Source of the DNA: Gavia stellata
Lineage: Eukaryota; Chordata; Aves; Gaviiformes; Gaviidae
Assembly: GCF_030936135.1 (NCBI RefSeq)
Contig: NC_082611.1
Coordinates: 978,501-1,042,500 of the forward strand
Length of the DNA: 64,000 nt
Direction of reading: 5' to 3'
Shown here: piece after piece, positions 12,301-64,000 of the stretch
Layout of the letters: every line of letters begins with the position of its first letter
How positions within the stretch are numbered: the stretch's first letter is position 1
Program-made: the position numbers and the translations under genes
Notes under the pieces: generated by a model
Told to the model about the DNA's origin: nothing
Databases searched by the model: none
What the model saw: only the letters and a program-made list of their open reading frames with translations

Positions 12301-13300
12301 TTCTTCTCTCCTTGTCCTGAGTTGAGTATTCCTTCCTTCTCTGTTTGTGCCTCCCAAGCGTAAACAGTTCCTGAATTAGTATTGCATTACGAATGCAAAG
12401 TGTATCACTAAACCTTGTTTGGGTTTGAACTGAGACTGTATCTTGCATGAAAATCTTGTATTACTTGCAAGTTTTTCATATCAAGTTTAAAGTAAATAAT
12501 TAATTTCCATTAATGACACTGTTTGAGAAGTGTGTAACTAAAATAAGGGTGCTATGATGTTGAAAGAGGAAAAAAGTGATCTGAATTCAAAGAACTAGAT
12601 GAGATGCTGCGTGTTAACAGTTTCTTGTAACTGGTAACACTCGCACACAACCTGCTAAATTTTGTACTTGACGCAGTTTGTATCCGTTGCTGCTTCATAT
12701 GTTAAGGGCCAAAGAGAAGCAGTTCACTGGCAACGACGCTGTCATGGTGCCATACTGCGGTGGTCTGTTCCGTGCGCTCCCCAGTCGCAGGGTTCCCTTG
12801 CAGCCGCTGCTGACGCAGCTGTGCGGGCACAGGCGCAGCACGCGCTCCCTGCTCTGGTTGCTCGCTGGGCCGACTCAGTGGACCAAGGTTTGTTTCCAAA
12901 CTTCCCTTCTGTTGTTTACTTTTCCTTCCTCTGTTAACTTGATTTTTCCAATGGAACTGTTTTCATTTTCAGTTTGGTACTCCAGCCTTTCACCGCCTGT
13001 TAGGATTAGCTTGTTAGCACCTTGTTTTGTTAATTAATGTCCTCGTCACTGGGGGAGGGAGGAGGGGACCAGGAGAGCTGTAGCCTTGTATGAAACATAC
13101 GGCCAATTGACCTTCTAGCCAAGGATTCACCTTCTGTGGCTCATGGAAGTTCACTGTGTCTTATCCATATTCTAAGCAATTCGTTCTTTGGTTTTATATT
13201 AAAAAAGTCTTAGATATTTGTGTCCACTGCAGATTTATTTTAAATGGAATATGTAAGTACCATGTATTATGGTATTTTTAAATAATCTATTGCCTATTTT

Positions 13301-13313
13301 GGGGGGGGGGGGG
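13301..13313 (+). repeat. Poly(G) run of 13
   Basis: Homopolymer of 13 G in otherwise AT-rich DNA between UBFD1 and ERN2. Confidence 0.75.
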
Positions 13314-14199
13314 AGATGACAAATATTTAGTCTTAGATTTGCACTGCTGGATTTTTTAAGTGTAACCTTGACTGGTTATCCTATTGTTTTATTCTGTAAG
13401 ATTAGTCCTATGAATTAAAGTTTGATAATTAAGTATTTATGTGTTCGAGTGTTTGGACATTCTGTACGTACTAAGCTACTTCCGCCTGCATGAACAACTG
13501 TTAGCAAGTGGTTTGTAGTTGTTTTCTGTGTAGAAAGACGGATGCAGGCAGAAATCCCTGGGCACCGGTGCTTGCTGTCACATCTGATGCCATTGGTGCC
13601 TTTTTCCCAGGGTGGGGATTTGGATATGCTGCTGCCATATACCACGTTGTATGAAAAGGCTGTGAATTGCGGGATGATTCTTCTTTGGCTCCCTGTCCAA
13701 AACCAGGGTTTACTCTTGTTTTAAGCTGCGATGCGCTTGTCGTGCTGAGTGTGCTCATGTAAGTTATACATGTCGGCAGCTTGTTGTGATGTCAGAAGTC
13801 CCACTTCTGTGTCGCAGCCCCCAAAAAGCAGGTGCTCAGGCAAAGCCTGATGTATTGGGGCTTACAGCAGACTCGGCTTTTTAACGCTTAACGGATGCTG
13901 CTCGTGTTTGCTGCCGGCTTTGCAAACTTTCTCTCCTCCCACCCATTTCGAAAAAAAAATAAAAAATGGGCTGAGACAGTTCAATAGTGTTATTGCTGAA
14001 ATAAAGTTCGAAATACGTGATGTGTAGTCCACCTAACGTGTACAGAGGGGCAAGTTCTCGTTCCGTTTAGTATCTGGCTGCGCCCTAACTGCGAGGGGCG
14101 ATGCACTAATGCCGGGGGGGGTTGAATCCTGCTGAACATCCCCTTCAGCCCCACTTTGTCTCTTCGGAAAGAGCTCTCTCTGGAGGTGAATCTAAAGGT

Positions 14200-14612
14200 T
14201 GTTGACAGCGGGTTAGTGGGGAAGGCGGCCGGGAAGAGCCCCCCCGCCTCCCCGCGGGACCGGCTGCCGCAGAGGGGCTGGCGGGTCCCGGTGCGCGGTG
14301 GCGGGTCCCGGTGCGCGGTGGCGGTGCGGGAGGGGAGGGGGCTGTCCCGGCATTTGTCCCCAGGGCCGTGTTAAAACGTGCCCTCGGGGGCGGGGGGGAT
14401 GCTAAACCCGAGAGGAGGGGGTCCTGCGCTCGTGTCGAGGGCTCGGGACACCGCGGGGGGCACCGGCGTGCCCGGGACTGCCGCTCTGCCGGGGCCGGGC
14501 CGGGGGGGCAGGAACCCGCCTCCCGGGTCCGCCCCGGCCCCGCTGACTCACGGCGCGGCGATAAGCGCGGCCCGGCCCGGCCCTGCGCGCCGCGGCCCCG
14601 GCATGTCCGGGA
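14200..14612 (+). promoter_or_regulatory. ERN2: CpG-island promoter of ERN2
   Basis: An abrupt change from AT-rich to very CpG-rich sequence occurs just before the ERN2 start codon, and the island continues into intron 1. It includes a perfect 20-bp tandem duplication at 14281-14320. No TATA box is obvious. Confidence 0.6.
14281..14320 (+). repeat. Perfect 20-bp tandem duplication
   Basis: Two identical adjacent copies of GCGGGTCCCGGTGCGCGGTG lie upstream of ERN2, followed by a partial third copy. Confidence 0.85.
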
Positions 14613-27069
<12,457 letters not shown>

Positions 27070-53217: not shown

Positions 53218-55528
<2,311 letters not shown>

Positions 55529-56555
55529 AAAACAGTTCTTCAAAGCCGGGTAAGTAGAAACGTGCTCCTGCGAGTGTCTCGGGCGCACGTGCACGTGTGA
55601 CGCCTGTGGAGGGGAGTGTCCGGACACCGTACGGCTGTAGGGCAGGCAGAAGTCTGGGAGGTCTGGGAGGGAGCTGGCAGCAGCTGCCCGCTCTGAGCGG
55701 GGAGGATAAAGTGTATGTGTTTTCCTGAGGCATCTGCTGTTGGAGGGAGGATGGGGGGCTCAGCGCCCTTTCATCTCGCCCTGCGTGGCACTTCAAGCAC
55801 TGAGGTTATCCGCAGGTCTCTTAGTAGGTGGCTAATTGACTTTAGTCATGAAAGTCCATCTTTTCAGCGCTCCTCGGCCATGCGCAGAGCATGCGGGGTC
55901 GGCAGCTTCAGAGGTGTGGGATAGCACAGCTCCCAGCTGCCCGTGGTGACCATTTCCTCCCTGCCAGCCGCAGCCGGAGTCTGGAGCAGGAAAGGAAACG
56001 GGCAGGAAAGGGTTATTGGAGCAACTGCCCTGAGGTGCTCTGGGGCTGCAGGGGAAATGAGCCGATGGCCTCGGGCCAGCGTGCAGCAGCAGATCGGTCC
56101 CCATTCCTGTTTGTTCCTGTGTGCGCTTCTGGCCTCCCCCCACACTTGTGGCCTCCCCCACACGCTCCTCCTGCGTCAGCAGGGGAGCTGTGCCCCTTCG
56201 CTGCTCTCTGAGCCAAGGGGAGAATCCTAGCGATCCGGAAGACCGGTGGCCTCCTTTACCTGCCTGCTTTTGGTATTCAGCTTGTCTTGTCTCTGCCTGA
56301 CCTGCTTCTTTTGTGCCTTAAAATGGTAGTTCTGGGTTGATGAAATACTAAATATGTGGATTTTTATTTTTTAACAGGAGATGTCTCTACCACCAGGACT
56401 GGGCTGGTGTCAGCGGGTGTGAATGTAAGCGCACATGCTGTACCGTTGCTGCTTTCATCGGAAAGTTGTACTTGGACGTTGTATTTAAAGCTGTCTGAAT
56501 GTGTTGTCCTTTAAAAAGAAGAAAAAAAAAAAAGGAATAAATATGTAAAACCATG
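55529..56555 (+). other. NDUFAB1: NDUFAB1 3'UTR with an intron and terminal exon
   Basis: A GTAAGT donor occurs 21 nt after the stop codon (intron from 55550), and a pyrimidine-rich TTTTTAACAG acceptor ends at 56377. The terminal exon runs from 56378 to about 56555, with AATAAA at 56536-56541. The stop codon is too close to the junction (less than 50 nt) to trigger nonsense-mediated decay. Confidence 0.6.
56536..56541 (+). terminator. NDUFAB1: Poly(A) signal of NDUFAB1
   Basis: AATAAA after an A-rich tract, followed by a T/G-rich stretch (GCTGTGTTGATGGCTTTT) about 15-30 nt downstream. Confidence 0.75.
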
Positions 56556-56559
56556 CTGT

Positions 56560-57540
56560 GTTGATGGCTTTTCCATTTCACGCTGTCAGCGGGTCACTGT
56601 GCTGGTGTTGAGGGTGTGAAGGACACTTCAGGGATGAGGAACTGGCTTCGCTAGAAACGCCTTTCTCTAACCCAGGCTTTCACTGGCGGCACGGCTGCTG
56701 CCCGCCCGGGGCCGTTCCCCTGTGGGTAGAAGCACCACCTGCCAAGCGCGGGAGGGCTCGGGCTCCGAGTGCATCTCGCTGAGAGCGTTCTGCGGTTCTT
56801 CCTCCCTGTGTGTCTGAAAGCGCTAGCAGCACCTGTACCGCTTGTGCCCTCTGCCGCTGGCGTGATCGCTCTTCCCTGATCTCGCTGCTTGTGCCTGCTC
56901 TTTCCGGTGAACCGCCCTTCTGCTGCCTTTACTGTTCATTCCATCAGTGCTGGTAAAAACAAGCGAGTTCTATTTATTTGAAAGGCTTCTGCTTTCCCGA
57001 TGGAAAATAAAGGGGGGAATGACTTCCTTGCTGCTGGAAAGCAAAATCACATCGGTGTTTCTGTAAGCCCAACTAATCTCAGCACAGGAGGCTTGCTTTA
57101 AATCTCTCCCGAGACAGAAACACGAGTTATTTCTGGACACTACACAGTTTTTCCTCTGAGCCAAGAAACACTTTCATATGTCAAAGAGGCGCTGCTAGGC
57201 TGCGAGCCAAGAAAGTGTCACTGGATAACGTATCCTCCTCTGGCAATCAGGGTGGCGGAGGATGGAAAAGGGACCCGGGTCTGTCGGTGCGGCACGTGGT
57301 GCCTGAGTGTGGTGCGGGTGTTCTCGGGGCTTCCTCTGGAGCGGCATTTCGCTTCTAAAACCGCGCGGTGCCGGACCCTCGGCCAGCCGGGTGACCCTCA
57401 GGGCCCGAGTTCTGCTTTCCTCGCGTGCGAGGCCCGTGCCTTTGGAAACTCCTTAATCGCCCCTTCACCCCCAACGTGTTTAAAACGTTTTCTGGACAGG
57501 CTGCACGGTGGAACCGGGAGGAAACAGTCGTTTTGGCCAC
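56560..57540. other. Gap between NDUFAB1 and the mucin-like gene
   Basis: No coding exon recognised. Mixed composition, with one AATAAA near 57005, rising to CpG-rich after 57.25 kb. Using human gene order as reference, this gap contains the second breakpoint of the inverted block. Confidence 0.5.
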
Positions 57541-57549
57541 CGGCGGTGT

Positions 57550-58238
57550 CGAGGCGCCCGCTCCGCGGCGGGAGTGACGGTGGCTGCAGACCCCCCCGGT
57601 GTGGGGCGGCCCTGAGCGCGGTGGGGAAGGAGCCGCGGGCGGATGCAGCCGGCGGTGCCCCGCAGCAGCCGCTGCCCCCGCCCCAGCGAGGGGCAGAGCG
57701 GGGCGGGCGGGGGAAGGCCCCGGGGGCAGCCGCGGCCGCGGAGCCCCGGCAGTGCCTAAGGGCGGCTTTTCCGGGATAACCCCGTTGGCTGGAGGAGCGG
57801 GGGCCGACAGCGCGTGCCCGCAGCCGAGCGGTGCCGGCGCTCTCCCCGGGCACCGGCACGGCGCTGCGGCCCGCGGCAGGGCGCTGGGGTGCCGAGCCGG
57901 GCTCCCGTCCCCGCGGGACCGCACCGCAGAGCGCGCAGCGCGGGTGCGGGGCCCGGCCGTGCCCCCCCCCCCCCCCCCGCGGGCGCCGCAGCCCGAGCTC
58001 GGCCCCGCCGCGGCCGGGCGCCGCCGAGCCCCCCCCCCGCCCGCCCGGTGCCCCTCCGGGCCGCGCGTCCCGCGCCTCCCGCACTCGCTGCCGGGGGCGC
58101 GGGGGGGGGGGCGGGCGGTGCCGGCGGGGCGGGACCGGGCCGGGGGCTGCGGCTCCCCGGCGCCTCCGCCCCGCCGCAGCGGGGGCGGGCGGGGGCTTCC
58201 TGCCGCCGCCTCGGCAGAGCCGGCAGCGCCGCCGCGCC
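57550..58238 (+). promoter_or_regulatory. CpG-island promoter of the mucin-like gene
   Basis: Extremely GC-rich DNA with a C run of 17 (57962-57978), leading to the proposed start codon; the island runs on through intron 1 to about 58.9 kb. Long open frames on both strands (up to 483 codons) overlap each other and are composition artefacts. Confidence 0.5.
57962..57978 (+). repeat. Poly(C) run of 17
   Basis: Homopolymer in the CpG island; the opposite strand is a G run that could form a quadruplex. Similar G runs occur at 58601-58621. Confidence 0.75.
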
Positions 58239-61200
58239 ATGGAGCGGCTCCGGCTCCCGCGGCTCCCGCGGCTCCCGCGGCTCCTGGCCGCCGCAGGTGA
58301 GCGCCGGGGCCCGCCGCCTCCCCCCCCCCCCGCGGGGCCGGCGGGCGCGGGCGGGGGCACGGCCGGGAGGGCGGCGGGCGGGGGCCCCGCAGCCGCCGCC
58401 GTGGGGCCCCGGGGTCCCGGGACCGGCCGCCGGTCCCTCGGCGGGGGATGCCGGGCTCGCGGGGGGGTGCCGCGGGCTCGGGGGTCTGCGGCGGTGGCGG
58501 AGCCGGCACAGGCACCGCGCTCGGGCGGGTCTGGGCTCCGCGCTTGCAGCGGGGCGGGGGGCGGGGGGGGGGCGGCTGCTCGAGTGTCATCGGGACGCGC
58601 GGGGGGGGGGGGTGGGGGGGGCTCGGCCGCGGGGTCCCGGGGGCACGTGGCGGGCGGGCGGCGGGGCGGACACCGGGGTGCGGCCGGCGAGGGCCACGTG
58701 CCCCACCGCCAGCCCGGGCTGGGCCGCGGCGTCGAGGGCAGCGGGTGCCGCACCCGCCGGAGGAGGAGCGGGAGCCCCGGCGAGGCGCGGGTGGCGAGCG
58801 GGGCCCGAGGGGCTCCCGGTGACCCCAGCCCCGGGCCCACCGAGGCAGGTGACCGCCCGTCCCGACGCCTGGTCAGCCGCCCGCTCCCTCCGGAGAGCAG
58901 CCACCCCGCAGCGGGGACCCGGAGTCCTGCCCGGGACGATGGCTGGCCTGGCGCTGGCCTGGCGCTGGCCTGGCACCGGTGTCGCGCTCTGCCCAGGGAC
59001 CTGCTGGTGCCGGCGTTGGCACGTGGCGACTGCCGGACGGCAGTTTGGTTCAGGGCAAAACGGGCGTTTCCAGCACGTGGCCGAGCGTGGCTGGATGGGG
59101 CAGGATTCGGTTTCGTTTGCTGAGGCGAAGGCAGGTGGTTTCCAGCCGGGTTTGGGTCGTTCCCGAGCGCCTCCCCCAGCAGTGCTGCCCGTGGTTAACG
59201 GAGGGGAGGCGCGGAGCCCCCCGCCTGCACCGGCAGCTCCTGGGGCGGTGGGGGCCCGGTGCTGATGCCCGATGCCCGGTGCGCACTGCTCTCTCCCCTC
59301 TCTCCCCAGTGATCGTGGAGTGCTGCGCGCGGCTCTGCCCCAGTCTCGGCAGTGGGACGGGCTCCACGCTGGGCTCTGCCGTCCCCTGCGCCCGTCTGGG
59401 GACCGCGGTGGGGGAGCGCTGCCGGACAGGTACTGCCGGGGCTGGGACTGTCCCGCTCGTGGCCCTTCGTCTGTGGCACTGCACGCCGGCCACGTGCATC
59501 AGAGCCGTGCTGGGGCCGGGGTGCTGAGCTGGCGGGTGTGGGGTGCCAGCCGCGGATCAGCCTTGCTCAGTGTCCCCCCACTTCTGCCTCTGCCCGTAGA
59601 TCCGGAGCGAGGAGCTGTCACAGGGCAGGCACCGATGCTGGAGGCCTTGGGGCGGCTGGGGACAGAGGCTGAGCTGCTGCCCTTCCCTGGGACCCCCACT
59701 GGGACTGCTGAGCCCTCCAGCCCCCAGGGGAGCCCTGGAGGCCCCCGGGCAGGCGGGGAGGGGACGGGGCCCGCGGTGTGGGATGGAGGAGCCACCGAGC
59801 GCCCAGGGACCCCGCTCTCTGCAGGCACCGCTGAGCAGGCAGCTGCAGCCAACAAGCGTCTGTCTCCGGCCAGCCTGGGGGTGACCAGCACGGGGGCCCC
59901 AGCTCCCACGGAGCCGGACACAGCGCCTACCACCAGATACAGCCCCGGGACTGACCCTGTAGGAAATGTGACGGCAGAAGGTGCCACAGCTCCGCAGGGG
60001 ACCCCCTCCCATTCACCATCCTCTGTGACAGTACCTGGCTCTGCCGGGGGGCAATGGGGGTCCCCCAGCACCCTGCTGGGATGGAGCCCCATGGGGACAG
60101 CACTTGTGCAGAGCCAGAGGGTCTCACATGGCCCCTCATCCCCGGAGCTGTGGGCTGGGGAGGGCCCGGGTGCCACCATCCCGCTAGGCGACAGCAGCCC
60201 AGGGACCCACCCGAGCCTCGCGCTGGCCACAGACAGCCCAGCACGGAGGACAATCGGGACATCGCCCTTTGCGGGGGCGCTGCAGAGGCTGCTGACCCCC
60301 ACAGGGACACTGAGGCAGGGGCTGCCAGGGCAGGGGCTGGCAGGAGGACGGAGCTCTGACTCCCGCCCGTGGCACGGGACGGACGTTGCTTGGCAGGGTC
60401 CCCACTCTGCCCCTCGCCCCTCTCCACCGTCCCTGGGGGCCGGTGGCCATGGGGGCCCTGTGGCCAGCACAGCCCAGCCAGCCATGGGGATGGGCCCAAC
60501 CTTGCTGCCTGCTGCAAGCAAGGGGTTGGGTCTGCCTGTCCCCACTGCCACGGCTGGCACCGCAGGGGTGACATCCCCCGGCCCGGGGGGAGCCCTAGAC
60601 CCGACCACAGGGGTCTTAGGGCCACCCGACATGGAGGGTTCCCCTGAGCACGGCCACATCCCTCTGGACCAGACCCGGCGCCCGCCAGCTGTGCCGGGGC
60701 AGCCTCCCGCCTCCGTGGCCCCGGGCAGCACTGCTGCGGCACAGAGCAGGGTGCCGTACGCCAGCCGAGGGTCCCCCCGTGCCCCCCCGTCCCCACAGCC
60801 TGCCCCAACCGGTGGCTCTGCAGTGCCCACGCTGCTGACCCTGCAGCCCTCCCCAGGGACCGGCTGGGGTGTCCTGGGGCTCAGTCCCACTGCGGGCACC
60901 CCCCTGGCACGCCCATCCCCAGGGTTCTGGCTGCCCCATGCCGGCTCGGGGGGGGATCCTGCTGAGAGCCCCCAAATCCTGGGGGGGACCCCGGTGGGAG
61001 TGGGCGAAGCCGGGCCCTGGGCAGCAAGTGCCCTGCCGAGCTGGCAGCCAGGCAGCCCGGCCCCCCCCTCAGCCCCTGGGCCCCCCCGGCAGCCGGCTCC
61101 TTCCCAGCCTGTGTCTTCCCTGGGGCTGACCACCACCACCGCTGTCACCGTCACCGCCACCACCGTCACTGCCACCACCGTCACAGCCGCCACTGCCAGC

Positions 61201-64000
61201 CCAGCACTGCTCGGGGACATGGGGACAGTCATGCCGGAGCCCGGTCCTGCTGTATTGCAGAGGGATGTGGCAGGGTTGACATGGGGGCCCCCAACTCATC
61301 TGCCCACTGTGATGCCAGGGGTCCCCCAGCAATCCACCGATCCTTCCGGGACCCTGGGCCATCAAGGGGGCCCTCGGTCCCCCCCAGCTGCTGGGGACAC
61401 AGATCTGGTCCAGCCTTCGAGCAGCCCCAGAGGGTGGCCGGATGCTGACACCCCCGGAGCAACGGCAGCCCCAGCTGCGGCAGGCAGGGCCCCCCGGGTG
61501 TTCATCGTGGAGGATCAACCACCCGTCCTGAGAGGTGGGTCTGGGGGGTTTGGGACCCTCTGCCAGGGCATGTGGGGGCTAGTGGTGGTGGCCCCCCCTG
61601 GGGTGGGCAGTGCGGGTCCGTGTCATACTGATGCCCGTGTCTCCTCCTGCAGCATCCCTCCTCCGCATCCCCTGCGAGCTGGTGCTGGACATGGGGTTCG
61701 TCCCCGCCCTGCAGGACCCCGGATCCCGTGAGCACCGGGGTCTGCTGCACAGCTTCAACCGGACGGTGAGCAGGGGCCAGGGCTGTCCGGGGGGGGCTGC
61801 GACTGGGGGGCTATCCCGCATCGTGCTCAGCTTCCTCCCTGCACAGGTCGCGCCCCTCTTCATGTCAGTGCCGGGGTTCCTGCGGCTGGAGGTGACGGGG
61901 ATCAGGTAGGTGCTTGCGCGGCCCCGCAGCGTGCGATGCTCCCTGTCGTGGTGGGGTGCAGGGAGTGTCACACGCTGCGGGGCCACGGCAGTGCCGGGCG
62001 GCAGCACTGGATCTGGGAGTCTGGGCCACCCCTGGACTCGCCGTGGGGTGTCCCTGCAGGGAGGGCAGCGTGGTGCTGGAGTACGACGCGCTGTTCGCGG
62101 CGGAGCAGGTGCAGGCGCTGGGGCTGGGCACGCTCGTCAACACCGCGCTGGGCTCCGGCAGCGCCCGGCCGGGGCTGGCGGTGGGCACTGCCCCCGTCCT
62201 GCGCAATGTGGCTCTGGGTGAGTGCGGGGCCGTGCACGGGGCTGTGCAATCACCGGACCCTGCCATGGCCCCCGGGGTCCGGTGCCCGGCTGGGGCCGGT
62301 CTCAGGGCGGGTGCACGCCTGGCCCCGGCTCTCTGCACGGTGGCACAGCTGAACCCCCATCTCTGCAGAGCGGCCGCTGGACCCCTGCGCCGTGCTCTTC
62401 GCCTGCCGGGCCGGCTTCGCCTGCGTGGCTGGGGCAGACGGTAACGCCACCTGCACCTCCCTCTGCCACCGCGACTACTGCAAGAACCACGGCATCTGCA
62501 CCCACCTCCGGGACCGCGGGCCCCTCTGCCAGTGAGTGTCCCTGGGACCAGCCCTGGGGTGATGGGTGCCGTCTCCCCCCGCGGCTGATGCCCCCCCCTT
62601 GGCGCAGGTGCCCCGTTGGCAGCGATTTCTGGTTCATGGGGCTGCGCTGCGACTACCGGGTGACGCAGCAGAGCCTGCTGGGCATGGCCGCCGGGGTCCT
62701 GCTCAGCATCGTCCTCCTGGGTGCCGTCGTCGCCGCCGTCGCCATCCGCCGGTTCAAGGCGCTGCTGCTGGAGGCCAGGGCCGACCAGACCCGCAGCAGG
62801 TGGGGTGCGCGGGGCCGGGGGGACCCTGGGCCTGGGGTCCGGGGTGGGCCCGGAGGGAGGGGTGCTCCTGCTGCAGCGCCCATGCCCCTGCCCTCCCCAG
62901 GGATGCTGAGGGGTGACGGGCAGTGACCCCGGCCCCACGTGTGGGTGCCCGGGAGCAGCACAGCCCATCCGGGGTCAGGGAGAGCCATGGCTCGGCAGGG
63001 AGGCAGGGTTGGGCTTGGGCTGAGCTCTGCCAAGAAAAACACTCTGCAGCGGCTGATAGCGGCGGGCAGGAGGTGCCGGGGCCGGGGGGGAGCACGTGCG
63101 GGGTCCGGGAGTAGCTGGACCCAACGGCCCACGGAGCCGCACGGCCATGGCGGTGCCCCCGGCTGGGTGGGGGTGACTGGGTGGTCGTGCCAGCAACGGG
63201 GAGCGCGCGGGCGCTGCCGGCAGCCCCACGCTGGCCCTGGGGAAGCAGCGTGCAGGCAGGAAAGGAGTGCCGAACCTGCTGGGCTGGATGGGGCCGCAGT
63301 TGCACCCAGTGTTGTGAGCTGCGTCGCTGCACACTCTGTGCTGATGAGCCCCCCCTGCAATGCATGGTCCCGGGGACCCGTCCCTGTCCCCTCCGTCCAT
63401 CCGTCCCCCCAGTGCCTCCTGTGCCGGCTGCCTGGGCCGGGCTCAGCCCCGGGGGGCTGCGGGTGGGGAGCAGGGCTCCGGCACAGCCCCACCAAAGCAG
63501 CTCCTCTGGGACCGCGGGGTTTCGTAAGGTGCCACAGGGGATTGTTCCCGAGGACACCACCCCAACAGCCGCATCAGCCGCGGGGCTGCAGCCAGATGCT
63601 GTTCAGTGTCACGGCTCTGCCCCCACCCAGGGCGTGGGGCTGGGCCCTGCCCCGGTGCCGTGAAGTTTGGGTGGAAATCTGCAATCTGTGCTTGCAGCGC
63701 AGTCACGGGGGTTGCGTGTGAGTGTGCACGTGTGCGTGTGCATGCGCCCGCATGTGCCCACGGGGTGCCGGCCGCAGCCGCCCTGCCTTGCCCCGCAGCT
63801 ACCGGCGGTTCTGCCGGCTGGACGACGTCTCGGCCCAGTACTGGTCGCGCTCCTGGCTGCCCTCGGCCAGCTCGCTGGACAACCCGGCCTTCAGCAACTC
63901 GGAGGAGCTGCTCCACTTGCAGATCTTCGACAACGGCTGCTGCAGCTGCCGGGAGGGCTCGGGCATCACCGACAGTGCCAAGCATCGCCCCGCGCCGCCC
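58239..64000 (+). CDS. SEA/EGF/transmembrane mucin-like protein, 3' end outside window
   Basis: Nine exons by splice sites and phase: 58239-58296, 59310-59429, 59600-61534, 61653-61765, 61847-61905, 62060-62217, 62369-62531, 62608-62799, 63799-64000 (continues); 1000 codons so far with no stop. Residues 60-704 come from one exon and are Pro/Thr/Ser/Gly-rich, mucin-like. Residues about 705-800 form a SEA domain with a GSVVL cleavage motif (Gly764/Ser765). A Cys-rich EGF-like part follows (about 816-883; CKNHGIC, CPVGSDFWFMGLRC), then a membrane helix (891-915) and a cytoplasmic tail with YRRFC and SLDNPAF motifs. The order resembles IMPG2 and transmembrane mucins, but I do not recognise an ortholog. 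Exon 1 (an RLP-repeat leader rather than a clean signal peptide) is the least certain part. Confidence 0.75.
58246..58278 (+). repeat. 9-bp tandem repeat (CGGCTCCCG) in the mucin-like gene exon 1
   Basis: About three and a half copies of a 9-bp unit encode repeated Arg-Leu-Pro. The repeat makes the N-terminus length-variable and weakens the signal-peptide call. Confidence 0.7.
61126..61200 (+). repeat. Short tandem repeat encoding Thr/Val/Ala units
   Basis: The (G/A)CCGTCACNGCCACCA-like unit repeats inside the mucin exon and encodes TVTATTVTATTVTAAT. It is the only clear tandem repeat in the 645-residue mucin region. Confidence 0.65.
62800..63798 (+). other. Intron 8 of the mucin-like gene
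   Basis: A GC-rich intron, the second longest of this gene (1.0 kb) after intron 1. It ends with a degenerate alternating TG/CG tract at about 63713-63756. No further exon was recognised in it. Confidence 0.5.

Follow-up and report, generated by a model that had tools for sequence, protein, structure and literature searches.

According to work on IMPG1 and IMPG2, SEA domains with the motif GSxxV cleave themselves, and the two resulting parts can remain attached to each other non-covalently (PMC9478142). For birds, excerpts of a 2006 inventory of chicken mucins name Muc4, Muc13 and Muc16 as transmembrane mucins and give MUC3, MUC12 and MUC17 as apparently missing (PMC1552070). The same excerpts describe an 'unknown' SEA protein, weakly related to MUC1, in which a PTS domain comes before the SEA domain and the N-terminal part falls in an assembly gap (PMC1552070).

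Here we analyzed a window of bird DNA, that is, the whole 64,000-nucleotide stretch C18:978501-1042500 of a 1.32-Gb assembly. We consider it likely that one gene in this window encodes a single-pass type I membrane glycoprotein and belongs to the SEA-EGF-membrane family as an extra member, apart from the bird IMPG2 and MUC17-like genes. In the open-licence literature we found no description of such a gene, and a peptide search in open-licence papers gave 0 matches for the protein. The bird gene is apparently without a name.

Results

The gene order at the locus is EARS2, UBFD1, ERN2, PLK1, DCTN5, PALB2, NDUFAB1, the SEA-EGF-membrane gene and a TNRC6-like gene. UBFD1 and EARS2 (window 1-3.2 kb) were identified by eye. 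Five of ten neighbouring stretches matched Pfam families, namely the PALB2 WD40 domain, DCTN5, two kinase pieces and an acyl-carrier domain, and the Pfam search gave no family match in the other five. Comparison of the neighbours with the PDB pointed to PLK1, to the mitochondrial acyl carrier protein (NDUFAB1) and to an IRE1-type kinase, which we placed as ERN2. Directly past the window end, positions 64001-69000 consist of exactly 5000 bases of N, so that the last exon of the SEA-EGF-membrane gene is cut there and the frame, followed in search of a stop codon, is still open at 64000. Beyond the N stretch, the Argonaute hook was found above the cut-off in one of three stretches tested and a weak match to the GW182 M domain in another. 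Therefore, we place a TNRC6-like gene downstream on the minus strand. In what we take to be the human order at 16p12, the ERN2-NDUFAB1 block is inverted relative to the bird, and presumably no SEA gene lies at the corresponding place. Measured against this presumed order, ERN2-PLK1-DCTN5-PALB2-NDUFAB1 (window ~14200-55530) seems to be inverted with respect to UBFD1-EARS2. Scanning the window for Rfam families and for tRNAs gave 0 matches. The window contains 916 open reading frames, 97 of which were selected by a codon-position filter.

The SEA-EGF-membrane gene was modelled with nine exons from 58239 to beyond 64000 (Table 1). Each of the eight introns follows the GT-AG rule, their phases fit together, and joining the exons gives 1000 residues that are open and free of stops. 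The nine phase-consistent exons proposed in the first-pass annotation were thus recovered, and the predicted protein-coding gene looks real and intact. Exons 1 and 2 are the least certain part of the model, exon 1 most so, because the signal peptide is modest (N-terminal hydropathy peak of 1.68).

Table 1. Features of the predicted SEA-EGF-membrane gene (window positions).
Feature	Position	Strand	Evidence and remarks
Exon 1	58239..58296	+	predicted start codon, signal-peptide-like start; GT donor, phase 1; hydropathy peak 1.68
Exon 2	59310..59429	+	AG/GT, phase 1 on either side; GC3 0.88 versus GC2 0.72
Exon 3, Cys-free, Pro/Gly/Ala/Thr/Ser-rich	59600..61534	+	644 full codons; 0 stops, 0 Cys, low Arg compared with shuffles
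Exon 4, first part of predicted SEA	61653..61765	+	SEA below Pfam cut-off; following phase-0 intron at the position found in bird IMPG2 and the C827 MUC17-like gene
Exon 5, middle exon of predicted SEA, 59 bases	61847..61905	+	length and phases 0/2 identical in the C827 MUC17-like gene
Exon 6, last part of predicted SEA	62060..62217	+	exon model, Pfam, IMPG2 alignment
GSVVL, close to the self-cleavage motif GSxxV (Gly764/Ser765)	62064..62078	+	sequence
Exon 7, first EGF-like unit (shortened, 4 Cys) and beginning of second EGF	62369..62531	+	Pfam EGF; phase 1 and phase 2 introns match bird IMPG2
EGF-like Cys cluster, 10 Cys, residues 821-883	62386..62650	+	split by intron 7
Exon 8, EGF end, membrane helix, start of tail	62608..62799	+	exon model, hydropathy
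Membrane helix, ~residues 891-915	62672..62746	+	hydropathy peak; ends placed by eye
Exon 9, predicted cytoplasmic tail, open at window end	63799..64000	+	exon model; next 5000 bases N

The EGF-like cysteine cluster, the membrane helix and the SEA domain named in the same annotation were recovered as well. For the EGF, PF00008 scored 23.3 bits with a cut-off of 21.5, and the single membrane helix after the SEA domain is the top hydropathy peak of the protein (2.77 at residue 897). PF01390 (SEA) reached 16.6 bits and stayed below its cut-off of 26.4 (E=0.0087 over the entire Pfam library), whereas the SEA domain of bird IMPG2 scores 58.8 bits. We nevertheless counted a predicted SEA domain as present, because this part alone aligned with the SEA domain of the bird's own IMPG2 at E=5e-7 (BLAST) and because the two genes have introns in common. 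The locus was not among the 51 matches (E≤1) of a genome-wide exon-by-exon SEA search since its SEA domain is weak and divided over three exons. Of these 51 matches, one unit on C32 and the IMPG2 place on C1 were examined further. A sequence search of the PDB gave weak matches only, the best of them to an EGF (E=0.08).

The genome has its own IMPG2 at C1:124.11 Mb, where six pieces align with the C-terminus of the human IMPG2 query at 58-94% identity. In this query the helix falls at residue 1100 and the EGF begins at residue 1012, in agreement with a published description (PMC10558372). The joined bird IMPG2 module aligned with the window module at E=3e-15, with 22% identity over 235 columns. 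Moreover, four of the five IMPG2 introns in the joined stretch have a counterpart of equal phase in the window gene, at most one column away (columns 39, 112, 184 and 247/248; phases 0, 1, 2 and 2). The remaining IMPG2 intron (column 316, phase 0) is situated far out in the tail, past the end of the BLAST alignment, and has no equivalent in the visible window. With this far-tail intron left out, placing four introns at random under a simple uniform model gave four matches in 0 of 2,000,000 trials and three matches in 54 of 2,000,000. At the sequence level, we regard common ancestry of the SEA-EGF-membrane module with IMPG2 as demonstrated.

A genome search with the EGF-membrane-tail part of the protein gave ten matches, three strong ones at its own locus and seven weak ones. 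Two weak matches were examined, one being IMPG2 on C1 and the other a small Thr-rich EGF/membrane gene on C3 (L036:3368-5450, minus strand). The latter encodes a membrane helix and an EGF whose end reads CPAGDNWWYMGEKC, and it matched the dystroglycan (DAG1) profile weakly, below the cut-off. Scans of viral contigs and of prokaryote contigs found no relative of the window protein.

Discussion

The gene is not IMPG2 and probably not MUC17, because the genome holds a separate IMPG2 on C1 and MUC17-like genes on C827. An unnamed automatic prediction of the gene may already stand in avian databases under a generic name, which would be compatible with an extra family member, and we see the chances of this as evenly balanced. 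Such an entry would be expected from the usual working of annotation pipelines, and the 'unknown' chicken SEA protein of the 2006 inventory could be this gene, although the excerpts of the inventory give that protein without an identified membrane helix and name no chromosome for it (PMC1552070).

It is unlikely that the gene belongs to the MUC3/12/17 group (human 7q22) and was translocated. The three-exon SEA domain with its 59-base middle exon would fit such an origin, as would a BLAST match to the human MUC17 query (E=1e-13), the motif TRSxYR past the helix in both and the ten cysteines after the SEA domain, which we also counted by eye in the MUC17 query. However, closer MUC17 relatives lie on C827, an 88-kb contig with MUC17-type EGF exons at three places (13047-16587, 55394-58579 and 63491-68037) and SEA pieces close to them. 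The best identities of these exons to the human MUC17 query are 46%, 36% and 35%. The query was checked against C827 pieces with 18-50% identity, the lowest of which run through introns. Used as a query of the genome, it gave nine matches (seven on C827, one at IMPG2 and one on C23), and the SEA-EGF-membrane locus was absent from them. The start of the first EGF and the SEA-EGF junction are also IMPG2-like. When the SEA domains of the bird's own IMPG2 and MUC17-like genes were compared with that of the window protein (BLAST, E≤10), only IMPG2 matched, at E=5e-7.

We hold it to be very improbable that GC-rich DNA yielded long frames by chance and that the model is artefactual or describes a pseudogene. 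Other long frames do occur in the region (598 aa on the opposite strand), and exon 3 has no GC contrast between codon positions (0.72, 0.72, 0.71), which is a mild point against coding. Therefore, its coding status rests on the absence of stops and cysteines and on its composition. The exon 3 frame has 0 stops in its 644 codons, of which 0 code for Cys, 27 for Arg and 131 for Ser or Thr. In 2000 dinucleotide shuffles of this exon, Cys averaged 19.3 (minimum 6), Arg 58.5 (minimum 40) and Ser+Thr 81.6 (maximum 107), and the longest open frame in any of the six frames reached at least 644 in one shuffle of the 2000. A chance open frame was rejected, as no shuffle had fewer than six cysteines compared with none in exon 3. 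The other five frames of the exon contain 3-15 stops and 20-41 Cys. Besides this depletion of cysteines, stops and arginines, exons 4-9 show a third-position GC of 0.89-0.97 versus 0.45-0.58 at the second position. The eight phase-consistent introns and the homology and introns common with IMPG2 likewise speak against an artefact.

Least probable of all is an orthology of the gene with IMPG2, which encodes a proteoglycan of the retinal matrix; the module alignment at E=3e-15, the four common introns and the near-equal spacing of the second EGF would agree with it, but it was rejected because the separate IMPG2 on C1 matches the human C-terminal query at 58-94% identity, the window protein is only 22% identical to bird IMPG2 and has 4+6 Cys, and Pfam (E≤0.1) found no second SEA domain in the 300 N-terminal residues and nine further stretches (upstream open reading frames and exon 3).

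Mucin PTS domains have about 40% Ser+Thr per 100 residues. Exon 3 reaches a maximum of 29 per 100; it consists of 17% Pro, 15% Gly, 13% Ala, 11% Thr and 9.5% Ser, and the tandem repeats within it are short. We prefer to describe its predicted product as a disordered stalk, possibly with O-glycosylation, rather than as a canonical mucin PTS domain. The first-pass annotation had described a 645-residue Pro/Thr/Ser region in one exon of a mucin-like gene. Of this, the single long exon and the domain order of IMPG2 and membrane mucins stand, whereas the exon is Pro/Gly/Ala/Thr/Ser-rich and low in Ser+Thr. The name 'mucin' is a weak label because Ser+Thr peaks at 29 per 100 residues.

We infer translation, cleavage, glycosylation, location and function of the protein. 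It would begin with a long stalk that is disordered and probably O-glycosylated, followed by the SEA domain, by one and a half EGF-like units and by the membrane helix with its short tail. In such a protein the SEA domain would fold and may cleave itself between Gly764 and Ser765, and the two halves would remain joined non-covalently. The stalk would thereby be held on the cell surface, presumably within the glycocalyx or matrix, and could be released under force, while the short tail would serve as an anchor or in signalling. Cleavage is plausible but not assured, with about equal chances for and against, because the putative motif reads GSVVL, with Leu as its fifth residue compared with Val in GSxxV.

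More tentatively, and at somewhat below even chances, the gene may represent a third branch of the IMPG2/MUC3-12-17 group that has so far gone unrecognised. It would then be an old gene that birds kept between NDUFAB1 and the TNRC6-like gene and that mammals lost or relocated, maybe bridging retinal matrix proteoglycans and gut membrane mucins. If the gene is confirmed across birds, the cell-surface glycoproteins of birds would gain an unnamed member. Moreover, its mixture of IMPG2-like and MUC17-like structure could help to show how the proteoglycans of the eye matrix and the membrane mucins of the gut originated from one ancestor. The locus also suggests that unstudied surface proteins remain in GC-rich bird DNA.

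One of the closest described systems is the C-terminal SEA2-EGF-EGF-membrane-tail module of IMPG2 (SPACRCAN), which has the same domain order as the window protein. The SEA-EGF junction, made of a split codon, three residues and DPC, is alike in the two genes, and W and G stand near the last EGF cysteine in both. The cysteines of the second EGF are spaced 6,5,9,1,12 in IMPG2 and 4,5,9,1,12 in the window protein, and a short stretch of the tail aligns with the IMPG2 tail, so short that chance may account for it. The earlier impression that the cysteine pattern and the tail differ from known ones was thus not borne out for the second EGF, while its view that the order recalls IMPG2 and membrane mucins in a gene other than IMPG2 agrees with the separate IMPG2 on C1. 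Differences are found in the first EGF, which lacks two cysteines (6+6 Cys in bird IMPG2 versus 4+6), in the number of SEA domains (two in IMPG2 versus one found here), in the motif (GSIVV versus GSVVL) and in the stalk. In addition, the window gene has an extra intron within the SEA domain. This fifth window intron, in phase 2 and two codons before Gly764 of GSVVL, is absent in IMPG2.

Together with the preceding phase-0 intron, it is present in the MUC17-like gene on C827. In both genes three exons encode the SEA domain, the middle one being 59 bases long, its introns are in phases 0 and 2, and one intron closely precedes GSVV; an EGF and a membrane helix are found in both as well. MUC3/12/17 members have a C-terminal PDZ-binding motif, a part that in the window gene falls within the 5000 bases of N. 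MUC17 has an EGF before its SEA domain, whereas Pfam (E≤0.1) found none there in the window protein, which also differs from MUC3/12/17 in its low Ser/Thr stalk and its IMPG2-like SEA-EGF junction; the MUC17-like copies, moreover, lie at another locus. A tandem SEA array on C32 (4537683-4563406), which we call MUC16-like from its arrangement, contains several units of equal score at 1266-base spacing. In the one unit of this array examined by eye, the SEA introns are likewise in phases 0 and 2 and the middle exon is short, but the array has many tandem SEA matches, unlike the window gene. The window gene has the junction and introns of the IMPG2 type and the 59-base SEA exon of the MUC17 type and therefore combines features of both branches.
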